From: Astropecten irregularis
Taxonomy: Eukaryota > Echinodermata > Asteroidea > Paxillosida > Astropectinidae
DNA: 64,000 nt
Direction: 5' to 3'
NCBI GenBank assembly: GCA_963971285.1
Contig: OZ020255.1
Coordinates: 1,178,001-1,242,000, forward strand
This document shows, piece after piece, positions 49,815 to 64,000 of this stretch. The notes under the pieces are model-generated. The model did no database searches. It was not told where the DNA came from and saw nothing but the letters and a program-made list of their open reading frames with translations. Positions within the stretch are counted from its first letter, which is position 1; each line of letters begins with the position of its first letter. Made by a program: the position numbers and the translations under genes.

Positions 49815-50029
49815 AGAGGAGTGATATGTTCCATTGAGCGCCATTGGATCTAACACTGTCACTAAATCCTTCTGTTTAAAACCGAAAGAAAAAACAACAC
49901 TACAGAAACTAATATGCATAAAATAACGATAACAAACAAAGAACAACAAAACAGAAAATCAAGGAGAGGAAAACGCCAAAAGCAAGAGAAAAGGACATAT
50001 TCTGCGAATCGAAGTGCTACGTACACCCA

Positions 50030-50345
50030 AACAGAAATGTTCACAGATTTACATATAACTTTTAGGGTATAGGGAAGGTACTGGTAGAAACATATTGTTA
50101 AAACATTTCAGCATGAAATGCTGTATTTACCCAGAAAGAGTATAAAAACAAACACCAGAAACATTTATGATCAAAAATCCTTCTTTGTGTTTTATAAGAA
50201 AAATTGAGTCGGGTTTTCGCTATGTCCGGACTCATGTCCGATTGAGCTCAAATGTTCACAGGTTTGTTATTTTATGTACATGTTGGATTAGACAAAGTGT
50301 TAGTGTTGTTCTGTTACCATTACCAATGATGTATTAACGCCTTCA
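50030..50345 (-). mobile_element. Second TTAA family, reversed copy
   Basis: Reads AACAGAAATGTTCACAGATT at the left and ends ATGATGTATTAACG; decayed ends. Confidence 0.5.
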
Positions 50346-52331: not shown

Positions 52332-53124
52332 CATTTAGGATAATATAAAATATGTGCATTTATATAAAATTTACGATATCAATAAAAGTACCTAAATCTA
52401 AGAAATCTAGGTGGAGGTTCGTTCATCCACAATTTAAATCATCAAACTAAAACAGTTTGAATTTTTGTGAGAGTACACTATGTAAGTACTCAACTGAAAT
52501 AACAACGAAGAAGTTACTCTAGTGACTATCGGTACTTTCCATCCCTACCTTCCCCTGTTACGGAGAATCACTAATGATAGCCAGCAAATTCTCCACACCT
52601 CGGACCGTCTCCTCAGGCCCATCCCAGAAATCCCACCTTGGCCTAAATTCGTCCCCAACCTCCTCGACTTGATTGTCAAGGCCGAGGTCCCGCCCACTAA
52701 CTTTCTTCCCCATCCAGCATGGCACTTTTAAGTGCAGTTCGAGACATGTGGTCTGCCAGGATTACATAATGAGTCTGATTCTTTCACAGGCAATGGCTAA
52801 ACCCATAAGTCCAAAGGGAATATTACATGCACTATACAATAAATTAGTTGTTCTTTCACTTCTTCATGAACGGAAGATGGTTCAAGAACTTCTATTTTTG
52901 TTTTATACCTTCATCTATAATAAATACAAGACAGGACCCGGAAGCATCCGAGTGACCATGTCAGGACAAAAGTTCAAACTTTTTAAGTATTAAATTACAT
53001 TGATATGCACATGGAATGTCATCGCCAGTCTCAGTTGTTGGTAAGCCGTGTGATACGTCTACTGTGTTATCACTCTGGAATCAGTTAAGAATCTTCGCTC
53101 TTGCAGTCTCAGACGATGTCAGTT

Positions 53125-53694
53125 TGAAGAGGTATGATTAAGATTATAGCTTACCCCTTCAGCCTTCTTGGTGCAGTTCTGGAGTCCGACTGGAGCAGTC
53201 AAGAGGGTGTGTGCACTATTGGGTGGCTGTATACTACTGCCCGCACCACGGTGACACGCCCACTTAAAGTAAGAGTTTGTCTAGTCACCCTTTTAATGTT
53301 TGTACTTATAAATATGAATTTACTACCTAAATACACTAACTAAATAAGTTAAATAAGTTAACTAGAAGCTGTGCACAGGCACTAACCTATACATCACAGA
53401 GAGGGTGTCTCTGGCTAGACCTGCTACATGTAAGTCATGTCCGTCCACTACAGTGGTCTGTGTGAGAGTGAGTGTATAGCTATTCTAACTATACACATAC
53501 AAGTCCCTGTGCGACCAAGCACGAAAGTTACAATAGTGGAGGATGCCTGCTACAGGCATGAGCAAATACCTACATAAATTTAAAAGTTACAAAGGGGTTC
53601 TCCACCCAGTGAATAAGGGGGAAGCTTTATTTATATACACAAAAGTGTTCCACTGTTAAAGTGGAGGTGAAGTCTAAATAGACTAATCACTACA
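53125..53694 (-). repeat. 3' LTR of the CsRn1-type fossil
   Basis: 570 bp partner of the other LTR. A purine-rich tract (AGGGAGGAG) lies just before it on the minus strand, as expected of a polypurine tract. AGTT precedes it at 53121-53124. Confidence 0.92.
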
Positions 53695-53756
53695 TCTAGC
53701 TCCTCCCTAGATTGCAAGCGAAAATGAAGAAATCGACAATAATATATACAATTACT

Positions 53757-54148
53757 TTAACGAGGAAAAATAAAATTTGTATCGCTGGGTAATATCGCCT
53801 GGATATACCTACTTGGCCAGCGAACATGTCTTCCACTTCGAGTAATTCTCGCTGGAGGTTCAGGACTTGCCGCTCGGGGCTGGTCCTTAACTACCCTAGC
53901 CTTCTGTGTGTCAGTGTCAGTGATAATATTATCATCCAAATATGCTACTTTGACTCTATCTATGCTCACAGTTTCCCTTTTCCCATTGTAGTCCAGCTTG
54001 AAAACTTTGTCACTTCGGCCTAGCACTTTGTATGGACCTTTATATGGTGCCTGTAATGGTTTACGTACCGAGTCAGTACGTACCCAGAGTTTTTCGGAAC
54101 TAGAGATATAGGTGCTATGTGTTGCGTCTGGCCAGATGAAAGGGGCTA
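53757..54148 (-). mobile_element. Integrase C-terminal part of the CsRn1-type fossil
   Basis: The minus strand reads GPYKVLGRSDKVFKLDYNG and VSIDRVKVAYL, the usual tail of a Gypsy integrase, then a Pro/Arg-rich end (TRSGRHVRWPSRY) shortly before the 3' LTR. The catalytic core is not seen. Confidence 0.8.
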
Positions 54149-54735
54149 CCTGTACATTTTATAGATTTTGTGGCGCATCCGGGAAGGGTGGGGGGGGGGA
54201 TGTTGGAAGCATGATGGGTATAGACATGTGCAAATCCTATTATGCGTGGATATCTCAACAATAATGAAAATTCTAAATACCTTCATAGGGCCCTTGGGTT
54301 TTTTTGTACGTGTTGGAATTGTGCTTAAAACAAACGTTTACATGGTGTTCTTGAGGTGAAGGATATGCAGGATGGTAAGAATGTGGATAAGATATCCCTC
54401 CCCGCCAGTGACCAATACAAGACAATGACACCATGGACCGTGTGTTGAGTGGCCTGACATAAGAGTAACGTTTATATTTGGGAAAAGTCTGTTGACCTCC
54501 GAAGTATTATACAGTATTTAAGATAATTATTATTTTTGTTAATGAGGGTCCAAACGTGAAGCATTTGTTGAGGAGTACATGTATGATCCAGCAGGAAGTA
54601 TACTCCCCTCGCAATGGCGATTGCTTCATTGACATTTAATTATGTATGTCCTCACTCACAAGTGAAGCAAGTATGGGAGCAAGGGAACAACCTCTCGAGA
54701 GGAGTATAGGGGGAAGTGTCGTGGCAATATTGGTA

Positions 54736-54780
54736 TGCCCTTATAGGTACACTCCCCTGAAGAGTGTACCTATAAGGGCA
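54736..54780. repeat. Perfect inverted repeat, 19 bp arms and 7 bp loop
   Basis: TGCCCTTATAGGTACACTC is followed by CCCTGAA and then its exact reverse complement. No poly-T follows, so it is not an obvious terminator. Confidence 0.9.
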
Positions 54781-55980
54781 ATGTGAACATCAGAATTCTG
54801 CACCAGATGCATGCGTATTTACTGTACGTTGTAAATTAATGACCCGAAATTTCCCGATATTTGAGTATCTTTGGCTTTATAAATCAACGTTTTCTCTAAG
54901 CATGACAGGCTGCTGAATTTGGTACGAGATGCGAACACGTAGGGTAAATGTGCCATGATTCGGACACTTAAGCAATTTTGGATTATTTGACCTTCTTAAT
55001 GTTTGTTTCTCTCAACTATTTTCACTTATGAACAACAAAGTGAAGTTATTATATCCAGGTTGATATTTTATGAAAGTTTTTTGTGTCCTTGAAATGAAAT
55101 TGACTTGAAAAATAACCTTAATTTTAGCCATGATTCGGACACCTTGTCCATGATTCGGACACACATGAAAAAATGCTGAAAAAAACATGCCTTGCAAAAT
55201 AAAATAATACCTCATCAATGCAGTGGGCAAATTCTCAAGTTGCCACCATTTATTTTCCCAAAAAAGTGTCATTTGACTGCTCAGAACTCAAAAAAGAAAA
55301 TTGGTGCATGGACACATCCAGGACTTATTTTCAGAGTTTTTGAAGGCAATGCCCTGATAAAAACGGGCCATTTCGGCCATATCGTGAAATTGAACTCCAT
55401 TCCGTCCGTGCGCTCCCGTGCGCACCACTCTAGTGTGTACAAAAGTCAATGGCGTAGATATTAGACTCCAGCCATTGACGAAATGAACGGCAGTCAATGG
55501 AGTGGAGTGTAAATTCGGGAGATGCCGGCATTTCTTCTAAAATGGAACATACACAAGCCACAAAATTATTTTGGCATATTGTTTAGCGACTCTGGGGGCC
55601 TGGGTAGCATAAATCAATGGAGTGTCAGAAATCATGGCACATATACCTTGGCTTCTGGACAAGGAAATTTATGCAAGTTCAAATTGGCAACGCAGCTCTC
55701 CATAATTTGGACCTTGATGGTATATTGATGAACAGAATATACCAGTTTCATATAAAAAAAATCCTGTTAAATTTAATTAATTTTCTGTGTTTTTAAATAA
55801 TGCATTTTCTCACAACCCTATTTTTAACAGGGCTCTTAAGTTAAGGATCACACTTTTTTTTAATTTGAGGCTGCACCCCAATTTCCTATCAGAAAATGTG
55901 ACATTTTATAATAGGAATTGGATCATGTAAAGTATGTGGCACCGTTGTTTAGTCTAATAGGCCCTAGTGCACCTATCGAA

Positions 55981-56217
55981 AAAGAATTCCACTGATGACC
56001 ATAATTTGTGCACAACTCTATAGAACCAACAGAGGGCGTTTTGAGCAAACTGGCTTTGTACAGTTTGTAGGTAAAAGAACCCTGTAAAACTCACTTTTCA
56101 GATATTCTACGCAAGTTTTCCACACATGAAATTGAGGTTTATCATAATTTGTATCCAATAAGTTAACTCTTGGAGGATATAATCCTTTTTCCGTAATGGT
56201 GATCAGTGGAATTCTTT
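55981..56217. mobile_element. Small TIR element (GAATTCCACTGA family)
   Basis: The ends read AAAGAATTCCACTGAT...ATCAGTGGAATTCTTT, about 237 bp apart. The same termini occur at 8755-8880, so this is a mobile family. Confidence 0.6.
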
Positions 56218-56589
56218 CCATTTGCATTTGCACATTTCCGAGCATCCGAATGCTTCCGAAAACGTTGCTTCCGAAGACCTGCCGAAGATGACGTTCGTTG
56301 TGACGTCACAGGTCATTTAAATAAAGTAATAAAATCCACTTTTTGGCTCAGGTATATACTGTTTCGTATGTTTTTCAGCGTTTCCAACCCTCTTGAAACC
56401 ATTCTAAGGCGTTCCATGCGATACAATGTCAAAATGTTGACTACAACATACATATCTGGGGCATTTTTGGTCATTACCGGATTTTTTTCTACGAAAGTAA
56501 TTAAGAGTGTTCCGATAAAGCCCTAGTCGTGTGCAGCGCCACCTACCGGTGGTTCCGGGAACATTGCGTCCAGACATGAGTACAGTTTT

Positions 56590-57990
56590 GTAAGCAACAA
56601 TAGCAATACAAAGTGGAGCAGAGATATCTAAATGAGTGAGCATCGCTACCTGAGTTAAGGCTGACTTAGCTTCTTCAAAAGCCTGCAGTTCCCTGTCAGA
56701 AAGTTGAACAGACTTATTCTTAACCGTCCCTGCAAGGAGATCTGTGAGAGGTTGTAAAATATCAGCAGCGTGAGGCATAAATCTGCGGTAAAAGTTAACT
56801 AAACCCAAGAATTCTCGTACCTTCCTCAAAGAGTTTGGGGGAGGAAAATCTTGGATAGCTTGCACTTTGTCAGGCAGAGGACTAATTCCTGTTGCATCTA
56901 CTTTGTGACCTAGGAATTCAAGGGATGGCACTCCAAAAACACACTTGTTAGGGTTAATGACAACTCCATACTTATTCAACCTTTCGAACAGTCCGGTAAG
57001 GTGTTGATAGTGCTCTTCAGGTGACGTACTAGCAATTAGTACGTCATCTATGTATGCATACGCAAAGGGAAGGCCATGCAGGACCTGATCTATAAATCTC
57101 TGGAAGGTCTGTGCTGCATTTCTCAAACCGAAAGGCATTCTCACAAATTCAAACAAACCGAAAGGGGTAGTAATAGCCGTCTTTGGGATGTCATTGGGTT
57201 CTACAGGTATCTGGTGATATGCTCTAACCAAATCAATCTTCGAAAATATAGTTTTGCCATGAAGAGTTGACGTAAAATCATGGATATGAGGAATAGGGTA
57301 CCTGTCGGGCACGGTTGCATTATTAAGTGCTCTATAGTCACCACATGGGCGCCAGTCATTAGACTTCTTTGGAACCATATGTAAGGGAGATGCCCAATTA
57401 CTCTGAGAAGGTCTGATAATGCCTAACTGCAACATGTGATCAAATTCGTCCTTTGCTATGCGAAGACGATCAGGTGCTAGTCTACGTGGGCGAGCGTTTA
57501 CTGGAGGACCCTTAGTCACAATATGATGAGTAACGTTATGTTTTACTGCAGACTCTTTATAACAAGGTCTAGTAATATTAGGGTACTGACCAAGTAACAA
57601 CTCGAACTGTGAGCCTTCAGAAATACTTAATGTTGGACTAACTGAGACCTCTGTAGACTTAGTACCTTGAATGCTAAGAGTTGTTTGCATGTCTATAAGT
57701 CTATGGTGTCTTACATCAACTACCAATGAAAATTGTGCTAAAAAATCTGCTCCCAGGATTGGGTAAGATACATCGGCAAGCACAAAAATCCATCGGTAAG
57801 TACGACGCAGTCCAATATCTAAAGTCAAAGATTTCTCGCCAAATGTTCTAATGGGTGTCTTATTGGCAGCGTGTAAACTGAATGTACTAGAGCTAATTTT
57901 GTCTTTGGAAGATGCTGGGAAAATGCTAACATCAGCCCCAGTATCAACCAGAAATTTAGTACCAGTATTACGGTCAGCAACAAAAAAAGA
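56590..57990 (-). mobile_element. Protease and reverse transcriptase part of the CsRn1-type fossil
   Basis: Aspartic protease traits (VDTGAD, then ILGADFL) are followed by a Ty3/Gypsy reverse transcriptase: [38 protein letters not shown] and the YIDD catalytic box. Only the start of the RNase H region is recognisable. Confidence 0.9.
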
Positions 57991-58029
57991 GACGACTTTT
58001 TTTCTCTTTGCCAGACGAACCAGTCGCCA

Positions 58030-58899
58030 TCAGTTGCTGGCGTTTGCGTTTTCCTGCGTAGATGCATTAGGCCTACTTCCTGAATATGTACAGGGTGGGA
58101 CACATTTATGTGCTTGATCCCCAAAACGCCAGTGGTACCAACAGGCACCTCCAGCATGAGCTGGGACATTAGAACTACGTGAGGGTGATCTTGACTGAGA
58201 TTTACGTCTACTATTAGATCTACTTCTATCCCTACTATTAGTTCTAGGACGGCTACTTCGCTGGACCTGTTTACTTAGCGATTGAACTTGAATGCTTAGT
58301 TTAGCTATCATGCTACGGAGCTCATCCGTCTCTGAAGGAGACGGAGAAGCTGCTGCAACAACTGAAGTAATCGCTGAGGAAGAAGTAGGTGTAACTTCCA
58401 AAATCTTATCTGCTATAGTAGCTAATTTATCAATGTCAACACTCTCGCTGGTGGATGCCAAAATTAATTGTGCGTTTGTTGGTAAGCGCTGGAGAAAAAG
58501 TTGTTTCAATATATTTTCTTCCAACACATTTTCACCAAGCAACTGCCTCATCCTTCTTAGCAACTGGGTAGGTTTTCTATCACCTAACTCTTCAGATATT
58601 AATAACTGATGTAAGCGTTTTTGCTCCGAAGCAGATGTACGCTTAATAAGCTCAGATTTAATTTTGTCATATGGGTTTTCCTGTGGGGGATGTAACAAAA
58701 GGTCTCGCACTTCTTGTGCCACCTCAGGTTGCAAAGGTGAAATTACATAAGCAAAACGAGTGTTCTTACTAACAATCCCTCTAGTAACAAACTGAGCCTC
58801 AACTTGCGCAAACCAAATGGTTGGGTCGTTAGTCCAAAAAGGAGGCAATTTCAAACTAACAGCTGCCAAAGAAGGATCAAAAGGCTTTTCTTCAGCCAT
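58030..58899 (-). mobile_element. gag part of the CsRn1-type fossil
   Basis: A frame of about 289 residues starting MAEEKPFDPS. It has the capsid-type block KLPPFWTNDPTIWFAQVEAQF-like, a Ser/Arg-rich tract, then a knuckle spaced C-x2-H-x9-C-x3-C (CWYH...HKCVPPC). That C-H-C-C form is described for the CsRn1 clade, in place of the usual retroviral CCHC. Confidence 0.88.
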
Positions 58900-58999
58900 A
58901 CTTTAACAGTTAAAAATATACACTAGAAATGAAAGATATGAATCAGCGTGTAATATATACAATTAACGCAGAAAAAAAACAACACTATATCACAAGGTC

Positions 59000-59767
59000 T
59001 TACAATTGCAAAATTGCCTGTTTGTCTGCTTCAAAAGCTCTGAGAAGTTCAGAATGCCAACGCCTCTTTACAGTTGAAATTGCGTGAAGACCATCATACA
59101 AAACGGAAAAGTCATTACGGGTTGATTTATTTAATTTTCCAGAACGACTTCTACGTTTAGAGGGTTTTCGTACAGATGTATGCCAAGACAAGGTACGAGT
59201 AACTACATCACATTGTGGTTCACTGTTGTGTGATTTGATGAAAGAATTTACAGAGTCGACAATGTCATCAAGTTCACGCTGATACTGTCGCAAAACATCA
59301 TCAGTCAAAATGGGTGTTTTCAAATGTTTAGTATTCTGAAACTTGGCAAAAGATGCGGGTGGAATTGTAACAAATGAAATGATTGCATTTGGCCTAATCT
59401 CAAGTACACTAGCTTTAAAATGTCGCAGTCGTGAAATCACATCTCCAGAATTAACATCAGATCGTTTGAGTACTTTCTCACGATGTGAACCGATATGAAA
59501 TGCAGTTACATCATTAATTCCTGCAGCTAATCTAACAATAATTCTATCACTCTCAGTGTAGTGACGAAGTCTAGCTAATGTAGGTTGAATCAAATCCGAA
59601 ATAGTGGCGCCACGCCTAATAATATAATCAATGTCAATTCGACACTCTGGGGGCACTGAATAGTGGTCAAACGAATAAGCACGAGAATCTGCTACAAATA
59701 TGCATCTCACGGTCTCGTTTAGACTCATTAATAAAGTGACTAGAAATGCTATGTACAAAAAAAACAT
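59000..59767 (-). mobile_element. SGNH-hydrolase-like reading frame of the CsRn1-type fossil
   Basis: A 255-residue frame between the primer site and gag, on the element's strand. It starts with a hydrophobic segment (MFFLYIAFLVTLLM). Three blocks resemble SGNH/GDSL hydrolases in order: VADSRA (nucleophile-type block), AAGINDVT (GxND block) and YDGLHA (DxxH block near the C-terminus). SGNH-like domains are known in ORF1 of some CR1 LINEs; one ahead of gag in a Gypsy element is unusual. The assignment is by motif only, and its role in the element is unknown. Confidence 0.65.
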
Positions 59768-59793
59768 TTAACTACACCAAGAAAAAAAAATAT

Positions 59794-59811
59794 ATCACGT
59801 CAGGGTCACCA
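59794..59811 (-). other. Primer binding site, tRNA-Trp type
   Basis: Two bases inside the 5' LTR, the minus strand reads TGGTGACCCTGACGTGAT. From memory of animal tRNA-Trp, this is complementary to its 3' end (ending GGGTCACCA) with about one mismatch. Confidence 0.75.
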
Positions 59812-59813
59812 AT

Positions 59814-60383
59814 TGAAGAGGTATGATTAAGATTATAGCTTACATCTTCAGCCTTCTTGGTGCAGTTCTGGAGTCCGACTGGAGCAGTCAAGAGGGTGTG
59901 TGCACTATTGGGTGGCTGTATACTACTGCCCGCACCACGGTGACACGCCCACTTAAAGTAAGAGTTTGTCTAGTCACCCTTTTAATGTTTGTACTTATAA
60001 ATATGAATTTACTACCTAAATACACTAACTAAATAAGTTAAATAAGTTAACTAGAAGCTGTGCACAGGCACTAACCTATACATCACAGAGAGGGTGTCTC
60101 TGGCTAGACCTGCTACATGTAAGTCATGTCCGTCCACTACAGTGGTCTGTGTGAGAGTGAGTGTATAGCTATTCTAACTATACACATACAAGTCCCTGTG
60201 CGACCAAGCACGAAAGTTACAATAGTGGAGGATGCCTGCTACAGGCATGAGCAAATACCTACATAAATTTAAAAGTTACAAAGGGGTTCTCCACCCAGTG
60301 AATAAGGGGGAAGCTTTATTTATATACACAAAAGTGTTCCACTGTTAAAGTGGAGGTGAAGTCTAAATAGACTAATCACTACA
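59814..60383 (-). repeat. 5' LTR of the CsRn1-type fossil
   Basis: 570 bp, TG...CA ends, matched to the repeat at 53125-53694 with about two differences near the inner end. On the minus strand, around 60315-60326, it has TATATAAATAAAG, giving both a TATA-like box and an AATAAA. It begins 8 bp after the stop codon of GT77 gene D. Confidence 0.93.
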
Positions 60384-60391
60384 AGTTGTCC

Positions 60392-62511
60392 CTACGTTTC
60401 AGAGGCTCTCATGATGTCTTCATTGGTGATGTTCACCAGCCACATATCGGAACTTTTGAATTTTGCAACTTTAGCCCCGTGTCCGCGGATACTTGCGGCG
60501 TGCATGACGACAGTCGAGAAGTTGGCCTTCTGGGCGCGTAGCTTGTAATACTTGGGTCCCCACGGGAAGAGGTCAGTGTCAAGGTGACCAATGTTCACGT
60601 GCTTCGGTATGTCTCGGCCCAGAAGATCGTTCATGATGCCTTGATCCGCTTTAATCCTTCCCGTGCGAGACTGGTTCTTCATAGCTTCGATCCAAGCCCG
60701 AATGAACTTGAGGGTGGTTTCCGTTGGCTTCAGATAAATCAAACCGGCGCAGAAATTTGAATCACTGTGTCGTTCGCGATACTTGGAATCAATCAGGGAT
60801 ATGTCAAAGTCTCCTTTGAAATAGGGGAAGGCATCCTTGAACCAGAACAAATCAGAGTCACTGAAGAGAACGTCCAGACCCTTTTCTAACAGAGAAAGAA
60901 TGTAGGGTTGGCGCTTCATAAAGAGCTTGAAGTACTGCTGAGTATATCGCGATATTGACCGAGGCATTTCACCGGAGTCTGTCTGTATCACATGCACCGC
61001 TGGATCAGTCGCGGCTCTCATGTGCATGTACCGATACCCTGTCTGATCCTCAGCAATGATGGTGGTGTTCACACACACTCCTACCCTTTTGATGCTCTCC
61101 AAGAGGTTCATGGTCATGTCCACGAAGGCTGTGTTTGTGGTCAACAGCATCATGACGCCTGGCCTCTTCTTGACGTCGTTCAGAGTGCAGTTGGACAACG
61201 GTCCTCGGACCTGTGATACAGCTGATGTCGCCGTCGCAGAGGGATGAGATGACACTACCTTGTGTGACGATGACAGGACAGCACGTGGCGGCACATCAGG
61301 ATTGGAAGGCACGGCGTCGTGTCGTGTTTGGTTACAGACCAGGACCTCCCTCATGACGCAGTTGCACGAGGAATGAGCCTTCACGGGTTTATGAACAACC
61401 ACACTCTTTGATGCATAATCTACAGTGAAATACGATTAAAAATCAAACATAACTTGAGCAAGGGTGTGACAGGATATGAATACTTTCCATTACAAAACAA
61501 CCCGACCAAGAAGCATTTAGCCTCCGAGAGAAAGATACTGCTAAGATCGAAACATTAGGCCCAAACTTATTTCATCAGGTCATTATTTTCGTTGAGCAGT
61601 TTACAATCAAAATGTATAACTTGTTCAGGATTGTGCTAAAAGCCGCACCCGGCGGCCCTAATATGGCAAAAGGTTGTATCTCGAAAAATCATGTTTCGAG
61701 AAAAACGGCTTTGAATATTCTGTCTAGTACCACTTTTTTCTGGCCAATTTAATTCAGGGAAAAATTTGCTGAAATTAATATTTATAACATACAGAAGGTA
61801 TATTTTAAGTTTCAACCATTTTCTATGATTATTTTTCACATTAGAGGCATTTTTAAGTCGATACTCCCTTTTGACCGTACAATCAATGTTGACCATCTCA
61901 ACACATTTTTGGCAAAAGGGTGTATGTCATGTTAGCATTGCTCATATAGAATGCATTGTCTTGGCAAAAGGGTGTAAATCTATGTTACACAAACACCCTG
62001 CCAATGATCTGTAGGGCAAAAGGGTGTATCTTGTGTTACACAATTCATATTGCATGTTTCTGTTTTAGCAAAGAAATGTATCTGAAGTTACGATGAATGA
62101 CCTTAATGAGAAATCACATGCTAGCTTTAAAACGATGCATCGTACGAACTTGAGATTTCGCCCAATGGAAAAAGCGCCCTCACTTACCCAAAACAGTTTT
62201 AATCTGAAAAATGGTGTAAATTGAGTTACACCCTTTTGCCATCACAGGGCCGCCGGAGTCCAAGCTGAGATTGTTGAATGAAAACTTCCATAGTACATGC
62301 ATGTTTCTATACACCGACAAGCAATGTTTTTTGGGGGTAAATAAGTTACGACTGTTCCAAATCAACGGTTCACAAATTAGCGAATTAAAACATTATCAAA
62401 TTGAAGCATATACAAGTTTTTCACGCAAAAGATCAACTTACTCAGAGTAAATACGAAGAATGCGGTGAATTGGAGAAGACAGACGATTTTGTACAGAGTG
62501 CGTGTGTCCAT
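60392..62511 (-). CDS. GT77-family glycosyltransferase D (two exons)
   Basis: More diverged paralog on the minus strand. Exon 1, 62442-62511, codes MDTRTLYKIV and a hydrophobic anchor (CLLQFTAFFVFTL) and ends in phase 1 at GTAAGT. Exon 2, 60392-61419, begins after the acceptor CACTGTAG; the product is 365 residues. The stem has CxC (SCNC) plus a further Cys. The domain begins GPLSNCTLNDVKKRPGVM, the DxD is DSD in LFSDSDLFWFKDAFPYF (residues about 211-213), and FCAGLIYLKPT, KADQGIMN and VMHAASIRGHG follow. Key family positions are kept, so it is probably active. The intron is 1,022 bp and holds a TIR element. An LTR retroelement lies 8 bp after the stop, in the same orientation. The start lacks the YY1-like context of the other copies. 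Confidence 0.94.
61649..62256. mobile_element. TIR element in the GT77 D intron
   Basis: CCGGCGGCCCTAATATGGCA to TGCCATCACAGGGCCGCCGG, 608 bp. The motif GGCAAAAGGGTGTA or close variants occurs at both ends and three times inside. Confidence 0.75.
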
Positions 62512-62615
62512 CGTTTCCACACAATTAGTACCCTAGGAGGAAATAAAGAGGATTTTCTTATTTGAGAACTTGCAATCGGCGTACAAACTACGCTGTCGCA
62601 TCTCATCATCCATTA

Positions 62616-62825
62616 AGCCTGCTGCACACAAGCGCCAAGTGCGTACGAATGAACTTTTACGTATACGCACTTGGCGCTCGTGTGCGGACTTTGGCGTACG
62701 CACTTGGCTCTCGTGTGAGGGCTTTGGCGTACGCACTTGGCTCTCGTGTGCAGACTTTGGCGTACGCACTTGGCGCTCTTGTGCAGACTTTGGAGTACGC
62801 ACTTGGCGCTTTTGTGCGGCAGGCT
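62616..62825. mobile_element. Foldback element with a 33 bp minisatellite, upstream of GT77 D
   Basis: Ends AGCCTGCTGCACACAAGCGC and GCGCTTTTGTGCGGCAGGCT are inverted (about 27 of 30 match), with TTA on both sides. Inside, five units of 33 bp start at 62664, 62697, 62730, 62763 and 62796 (TACGCACTTGGCGCTCGTGT...). It lies 105 bp before the GT77 D start codon. Confidence 0.85.
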
Positions 62826-63677
62826 TTATGGAATGAGTTGCCCTCCTCTGACCAACCTCTCTATTCGTCCGAATCTCAAATAAGTTGGGACAATTGGTCT
62901 TGTTGTGGACCTGTTGATTTTCAAATTGACTGCCAGCTCAATGTAATGTAAATCACTCCCTTCCAATGCATCAATCAGCCGTTCCCGATCAACATCAAGA
63001 TATTCTCGCGTATAACGCCAACAACCTGCCTTTGTTTTTGAGGATTCTCCAGTTATACAAGCAACCGTTACCAGGAAATTAATAAAAGTGAATTTACTGA
63101 AAGAAGTTAACCATTTTATACCCTTTTAAATCTTGCGGCACAGCACAGCCATAATTACAACTTACAAACGCCAAATTTGCTGAACATTCGCAGAAATGCC
63201 TGCCCCAAAACGAATTCGATTGACAATACGCACGCTGCCAAAAGCCGTTGTGTGAATTTGAATGCTGTTCGAATAGAATTTTAAATTGAAAGGCGATTCT
63301 TTTTAATCGCTTATGAACATTTGCTTGCACATGAAGTGAAAATTGAATGACTATTTTGATGTGTTTGCAGTTTCACGTGGAATGGGATGACGCAACGTTT
63401 AAAAAGTCCGTTTATTTGCGGAACATGGCCAGGATAATATTAATAATAGAAACTGTAAAGTGTGACATTTCCAAAGACTATTGTTCCCTCCGTGTGCTAC
63501 GTATATTGTCTCCTGCTTTTACTCAACCCCTGCCCTTTACGCTTGACTGGTTTTACATGAAAAATTCACCACCAGGATGCCATTATCCGTGTTCATTACT
63601 AATGTGGGCTTGCATGCTTGGCGCCGTACTATAGTGGTTTTTCCACTTACATTTATTCCCACAAAAATATTGATTAA
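62826..63677. other. Upstream of GT77 D, no gene seen
   Basis: AT-rich, no motif recognised before the TTAA MITE at 63678. Confidence 0.5.
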
Positions 63678-64000
63678 AGGTGATATCATACTTTGGTTTT
63701 TGACAAAGAAATACAGATTCATGGGCAGAAATATCAAGACAGATACGGTAACGATCATCTGTGAAAATTTAAGCCCCATACGGCGCCCACTTTTTGAGAA
63801 AACAGTTAAATACGGCCACAGTATTTCTTAAGTCTTCTCTCTTTTATTTTTGATCTTATGTTTTACTCTTTTCTGGATAAATACAGCATTTCATGCGGAA
63901 AAATGTAAACGGTATGTTTCTACCAGCACCATCTTTATACCCGCTGTAAGTTATACGTAAATCTGTGAACATTTCTGTTTTGGCTTCTTACCAAAGTTAT
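63678..64000 (+). mobile_element. TTAA MITE, cut by the right edge
   Basis: Starts AGGTGATATCATACTTTGG after TTAA; runs to TTACCAAAGT at the window edge. Confidence 0.8.

Follow-up and report, generated by a model that had tools for sequence, protein, structure and literature searches.

The window, a 64,000-nucleotide stretch of the Astropecten irregularis genome, contains an LTR retrotransposon on the minus strand that spans positions 53125-60383. Its two 570-bp LTRs (5′ LTR, 59814..60383, with TG and CA ends; 3′ LTR, 53125..53694) differ at 2 of 570 sites, and the element is flanked by a 4-bp target-site duplication (TSD), AGTT, at 60384..60387 on its 5′ side and 53121..53124 on its 3′ side. 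A primer binding site (PBS), TGGTGACCCTGACGTGAT (59794..59811, minus strand), begins two bases past the 5′ LTR and is complementary to the 3′ end of tRNA-Trp plus CCA; two genome sites with a 3′ end that matches it are called tRNA-Trp by ARAGORN. Beyond the PBS the minus strand carries, in this order, a frame with the motifs of SGNH hydrolases (59000..59728 when counted from its Met15), a 100-nt gap that lacks ATG and includes a pyrimidine-AG stretch (58900..58999), gag (58030..58899) and a frame for a protease-like domain and reverse transcriptase (RT; 56404..58029). The gag ATG at 58899 stands in a strong context, and its product matches DUF7041 in a family search (E 2.3e-32). In the window copy pol is interrupted further downstream, and a C-terminal pol remnant (53757..54158, minus strand) has its matches close to the 3′ end in other elements. 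Around the element, a 347-aa frame matching Nucleotid_trans (PF03407, E 8.9e-28; minus strand, 60384-61435) reaches its stop just a few bases upstream of the element on the same strand, a 33-bp tandem repeat with 38-nt inverted arms on both sides occupies 62609-62832, and a pair of inverted arms that are 84-94% complementary (50026-50137 and 63870-63983) lie about 13.8 kb apart with the element inside.

The initial annotation had described this element as a CsRn1-type Gypsy fossil. Members of the CsRn1 clade of Ty3/Gypsy (CsRn1, PwRn1 and AgCR) are described as having a tRNA-Trp PBS, a 4-bp TSD and the Gag signature CX2HX9CX3C (PMC2582038). The window element shares all of these: in addition to its tRNA-Trp PBS and AGTT duplication, the window Gag carries the CX2HX9CX3C knuckle at residues 254-271 of its frame (58090..58143, minus strand), and 4-bp repeats also flank L010, L017, L022 and L026. 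The type assignment is thereby backed, and the SGNH-bearing elements appear to be CsRn1-like Ty3/Gypsy elements, an assignment for which the PBS, the TSD and the Gag knuckle speak. They differ in having an SGNH cistron ahead of gag, a frame not described in the available part of that report. When 150 of 1133 candidates from a search with RT were scored, identities dropped from at least 58% to at most 46%, indicating that the SGNH-bearing elements form a distinct lineage among the Gypsy elements of this genome. The word fossil suits the broken pol of the window copy, but not its age or its family. In addition to the near-identical LTRs of the window copy, LTR pairs were found in 15 of 16 other loci tested, 96.0-100% identical and in 13 of the 15 at least 99.3% (several being cut at the fetched end). 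This is a recently active family of Gypsy-type LTR retrotransposons.

The SGNH-like frame was confirmed where it had been claimed, between the 5′ LTR and gag, as 255 codons open from Met to stop (59000-59767, minus strand) with the motifs ADSRA, RRGAT, AAGINDVT and YDGLH in SGNH order. The cistron that starts at Met15 (59728) encodes 242 aa plus a stop and includes the ADS, RGA, GIND and DGLH blocks, with a basic insert before DGLH. The in-frame hydrophobic extension from Met1 (59729..59767, minus strand) is not conserved in the sibling L025. Because this 98% identical copy has no Met at the position of Met1, and because the frames of other subfamilies begin near Met15, the first 14 residues, which are hydrophobic, probably represent untranslated leader that is in frame with the cistron.

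A search of the same genome returned 71 matches to the SGNH frame, some of them pieces of one copy. Near-full-length matches were found at 98%, 52-55% and 40-47% identity and the majority were open, so the frame is more than a chance feature of the window, and its absence from every other copy of the family, which would have told against it, is excluded. In all 21 loci considered (the window and 20 fetched loci) the SGNH frame shares its strand with gag or a gag piece and immediately precedes it; these loci were chosen for SGNH, and the count therefore shows SGNH to be accompanied by gag rather than gag by SGNH. Three additional SGNH frames have no adjoining gag (two in L014, one in L015). RT is in the expected place in 15 of the 21 loci (L009-L013, L016-L021, L023, L025, L026 and the window). 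The copies fall into about seven subfamilies (window/L025/L026; L009-L013; the C9 copies L014, L015, L027 and L028; L016-L018; L019/L020; L021/L022; L023/L024), between whose representatives the SGNH protein is 42-68% identical. The C9 stretch at about 4.94-5.59 Mb (L014, L015, L027, L028) holds 30 of the 71 matches; there, the frames of L014 and L015 are embedded in a block of approximately 31-bp tandem units, several SGNH frames are cut short of DGLH, and YGGLH stands in those that are full.

Family searches and profile comparisons gave different views of what this protein is. As a single sequence the window protein had no SGNH family match in Pfam, NCBIfam, PHROGs or PDB, and a nine-row alignment of the elements' SGNH frames (A1) found no significant SGNH match in these same collections. 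The best family match was to PF00657, by one of nine members, with an E of 0.0055 and 17.3 bits against a curated cut-off of 23.6, and thus below it; matches to squalene synthase, TASOR and haemagglutinin were at chance level and were set aside. AlphaFold2 run on the single sequence with no alignment returned a pLDDT of 37.5. A second alignment (A2) comprised eight SGNH proteins at places found with PF13472 in the same assembly, of which three are Ngaro, two LINE-like, one SGNH-CCHC and two bacterial-looking, each named by reading its neighbours. The A2 profile finds solved SGNH esterases, with 4c1b first (E 6.7e-27). Comparison of the A1 and A2 profiles gave a probability of 88.8, an E of 2.5e-6 and a score of 46.5, against a best score of 27.0 in 300 column permutations (150 per profile) and of 19.1 and 19.7 for reversed profiles. 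In local alignment at a looser threshold all four blocks, DGLH included, were in register; a forced global alignment (probability 76.5) left DGLH out of register. Three-row sub-profiles reached a probability of only 1.1 for Ngaro and 22.9 for the LINE-like group (which includes L062), so that no special kinship to either can be claimed. The profile search proposed by the initial annotation therefore succeeded at the level of profile against profile, supporting the SGNH identity, and yielded no Pfam match above cut-off. In the same assembly, two tandem TesA-like SGNH genes on C57 (L059, L060) lie beside an ABC-transporter frame and look bacterial, which suggests a symbiont or contaminant contig.

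Conservation was counted after aligning 24 rows, made up of the window frame and the frames of the fetched loci. Wherever a row reaches the block I position, Ser is retained (22 of 22), within an ADS motif whose first residue is Ala rather than Gly. The block II Gly and the Asn of the block III GxND are each present in 24 of 24 rows, and the His of the block V DxxH in 21 of 21. The Asp of this last block is found in 15 of 21 rows and is replaced by Gly in five and by Glu in one. The rows without Asp include L018, a complete element with LTRs identical over 465 bp; the catalytic Asp may be dispensable, or the L018 copy may be defective. A long insert separates blocks III and V, and just before DGLH the seven representatives share a conserved basic insert of 25-31 residues with 7-10 Lys or Arg and 0-1 Asp or Glu. 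The protein is likely an SGNH-type hydrolase that would cut esters.

The SGNH cistron has been held under selection for its product. Synonymous differences between subfamilies are saturated (pS 0.73-0.91), and dN is 0.24-0.63, somewhat higher than for gag (0.13-0.51) and RT (0.10-0.25). Since the protein is conserved while synonymous sites are saturated, the comparison of the coding sequences shows purifying selection across subfamilies, and the frame is kept for its protein. Its retention in several diverged branches suggests that the gene probably helps the element to copy itself; indeed, we hold it very probable that the cistron serves the element.

A genome search with gag returned 108 matches, some without an SGNH match nearby. 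For the reverse test of the association we took the upstream stretches of ten such gag elements. In eight of these (L029, L030, L032, L034-L038) gag directly follows the PBS, with no room for an SGNH frame. An in-frame gag Met lies 26-129 nt past the PBS in six of the eight; no such Met was found in L034 and L037, where the gag frame begins inside the fetched 265-280 nt. In L031 and L033 the fetched sequence revealed no SGNH frame but no PBS either, and these two elements were not counted as SGNH-lacking. An SGNH profile search of all ten stretches gave nothing above noise (best E 0.7). In a tree of RT and RNase H (34 rows, 12 with RT only), 18 SGNH-bearing rows were split from eight SGNH-lacking and two outgroup rows with support 92/91, and the SGNH-bearing clade is nested among SGNH-lacking elements. 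Six relatives of uncertain SGNH status are present in both trees and stand outside the one-clade count; L048 and L053 fall inside the clade, and when the rows of unknown status are scored as others three changes are needed. In a tree of RT only, the backbone is unresolved and there is no single clade, with five changes, one of which comes from the mislabelled L028. In L028 about 4 kb separate the RT from the gag piece, and the RT clusters with the outgroup; the locus was for that reason omitted from the RT/RNase H tree. The window RT is included in the RT-only tree, its subfamily being represented by L025 and L026 in the RT/RNase H tree; L022 and L024 (no RT core) and L014, L015 and L027 (no pol match) are in neither.

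Since the RT/RNase H tree unites the SGNH-bearing elements in one clade, a single gain of the frame is favoured, although a support of 92/91 is not decisive and falls short of proof. The capture of a host or LINE domain proposed at the outset therefore agrees with the element tree to this extent, but no donor was found: the genome matches examined all belong to elements, and searches of viral contigs, phages and prokaryote genomes were empty. In L009 and L010, 13 nt of the junction between LTR end and PBS, TAAAACTGGTGAC, are repeated in the gap after the SGNH frame, with a repeat as long in 1 (L009) and 0 (L010) of 2000 shuffles. L016 has a 7-nt junction match (36 of 2000 shuffles) and the other five representatives have none beyond chance. 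The 13-nt repeat is suggestive of a scar that SGNH insertion at the PBS by template switching could have left.

In these elements SGNH is always a separate first cistron after the PBS. Where both starts could be placed, the gap from the SGNH stop to the gag ATG is 24-105 nt long and contains no ATG; L024, with an altered frame, has a gap of 6 nt. The frame relation of SGNH to gag is 0, 1 or 2 depending on the subfamily. A fusion of SGNH with gag by readthrough or frameshifting was rejected on account of this variation and of the stop in each SGNH frame examined, and the ATG-less gap wherever a gag ATG could be placed also argues against it. Start contexts were compared in seven subfamily representatives: the SGNH ATG is preceded by a purine at -3 in two of them and followed by G at +4 in none, and the gag ATG has A at -3 in all seven and G at +4 in five. 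The interval between the two starts contains 39 ATGs in these representatives against 79 expected from dinucleotide shuffles. The depletion is clear in four of them, namely L014, L016 and L021 (0 of 300 shuffles as low) and L019 (P 0.010); in L023 it is borderline (0.047), and in the window (0.12) and L009 (0.087) it lacks significance; a purine at -3 together with G at +4 is found at just 1 of the 39 intervening ATGs. These start contexts and ATG counts support, without proving, a route in which gag would be reached by leaky scanning in most subfamilies. As a full account, leaky scanning was rejected, as the window and L009 representatives retain 14 and 10 ATGs. Splicing or re-initiation may provide another route, and splicing is kept in consideration because acceptor-like pyrimidine-AG stretches were seen by eye in several gaps, with no clear donor.

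Taken together, we propose that a CsRn1-like clade acquired, between its PBS and gag, a gene for an SGNH-type hydrolase, most likely once. A weak start codon would yield little of the protein, while part of the ribosomes would bypass that start and reach the strong gag start by leaky scanning. Its product, probably cytosolic and equipped with an SGNH active site and the conserved, strongly basic insert before DGLH, would bind acidic membranes and cleave an ester or acyl lipid there, and could aid the assembly of Gag/RNA particles at membranes or their passage through them. These last steps are modelled on the ORF1 esterase of the LINE ZfL2-1, which is hydrolytic and binds acidic phospholipids, and for which the authors favour membrane targeting of the RNP and propose that a positive surface meets membranes (PMC3905857). 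By this analogy the most likely identity of the SGNH protein is a cytosolic membrane-lipid esterase or adaptor resembling the LINE ORF1 esterase. We regard the complete account, that is, a CsRn1-like Gypsy clade with an SGNH gene gained once and expressed from a weak start as an independent first cistron with a membrane-lipid role, as evenly balanced between right and wrong; the membrane-lipid role taken alone is tentative, and we would put it somewhat below an even chance. A bolder version pictures an "esterase-first" CsRn1-like sub-clade in which a lipid-acting SGNH product comes first and the translation of gag was rebuilt around leaky scanning, with the SGNH start weak, the gag start strong and ATGs lost over roughly 750-830 nt; this we consider possible but rather doubtful.

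The main rival to a membrane-lipid role is non-catalytic binding of RNA or Gag. In Oskar, the OSK domain uses an SGNH fold with a basic surface as a binding module, and the SGNH protein could similarly be mainly a binding module for element RNA or Gag, its catalysis secondary or lost. The conserved and strongly basic insert, the loss of Asp in 6 of 21 rows and the adjoining position of gag all fit this reading, as does a 305-aa open frame in the same genome (L062:1123-2037, minus strand) in which an SGNH domain is fused to CCHC-like knuckles and which matches OSK weakly (E 0.014, below cut-off). Pure binding has, however, no need of the Ser, Gly, Asn and His that are found in every row with the position, and we judge this alternative unlikely, if the most serious of the competitors.

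Two further alternatives are far less probable than binding. The first is that the protein is not SGNH at all, and that an unrelated conserved accessory protein bears the motifs by chance. The long insert between blocks III and V and the family searches with single sequence and A1 profile lean this way; a score of 46.5 against a null maximum of 27.0, with four ordered blocks in register in the looser alignment, makes it quite improbable. Equally improbable is an env-like part, secreted or membrane-anchored, that would act on surface glycans or host membranes at entry or exit. If Met1 were used, the window copy would have a hydrophobic N-terminus, and SGNH enzymes include sialate O-acetylesterases (as named among the structure matches of A2), but this N-terminus has no Met in L025 and is missing from other subfamilies, and no other conserved hydrophobic segment is visible by eye. 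A signal peptide was rejected for the same lack of conservation of the hydrophobic N-terminus among copies, and inspection of the alignment by eye revealed no conserved signal peptide or membrane segment in the SGNH frames. With no conserved secretion signal to be seen by eye, glycan handling, one of the roles suggested initially, is disfavoured. Finally, a passenger, that is, a transduced host frame useless to the element, has precedent in other captures of SGNH genes by transposons, such as that reported for a platyfish Helitron (PMC4021074), but is hardly credible for a frame kept in seven subfamilies despite saturated synonymous sites and with no host counterpart among the genome matches.

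SGNH or GDSL frames are known from several other retroelements. The esterase of LINEs (ZfL2-1, CR1, RTEX) is described as a domain of an ORF1p with a coiled coil in non-LTR elements (PMC3905857); it resembles the present protein in its SGNH active-site pattern, in being carried by a retroelement and in preceding the other main frame. The elements studied here differ in having LTRs, a PBS, gag and a stand-alone SGNH cistron, and the profile similarity is weak. Bdelloid Vesta1 LTR elements and Athena carry a GDSL ORF3 (PMC5408684), and thus likewise represent the addition of an SGNH/GDSL frame to an LTR retrotransposon lineage. As far as position can be compared, the Vesta1 frame is numbered after gag and pol, whereas in each of the 21 loci here SGNH precedes gag as the first frame. 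In Ngaro/DIRS elements an accessory SGNH frame follows the tyrosine recombinase (PMC9210276); in our elements it is followed instead by gag and a Gypsy-type protease-RT, and the three-row Ngaro profile was not significant (probability 1.1). Ngaro-like elements are present in the same genome, with tyrosine recombinase frames and then SGNH frames in L063-L066, L070 and L032:3-1577 (plus strand); the L032 instance happens to sit just upstream of an SGNH-lacking Gypsy element. Extra sense ORFs upstream of gag-pol are also known in LTR elements (PMC8220671, PMC7264820), comparable in lying ahead of gag but different in that the accessible text of these reports mentions no SGNH or esterase identity. 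Within the literature searched, which lay outside Repbase and most subscription journals, no SGNH cistron 5′ of gag in a Gypsy element was found, in line with the initial view that a 5′ hydrolase ahead of gag is an unusual Gypsy part; such elements may have been catalogued without discussion. What is new against the known SGNH/GDSL frames of LINE ORF1, Ngaro, Athena and Vesta1, as judged from the accessible literature, is therefore an SGNH cistron ahead of gag in Gypsy.

One type of enzyme has thus been recruited repeatedly by retroelements, each time at a different place, which suggests that they share some step of retrotransposition, so far without explanation, in which ester or lipid chemistry plays a part. 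The Astropecten family is also relevant to how an LTR element fits a cistron of about 240 codons before gag and still makes Gag, and its young, near-identical copies, together with SGNH-lacking relatives in one genome, make a comparison within a single host possible. If the "esterase-first" reading is true, LTR elements would have arrived by convergence at a counterpart of the LINE ORF1 esterase, which would be evidence that membranes are of importance to retrotransposition in either class.
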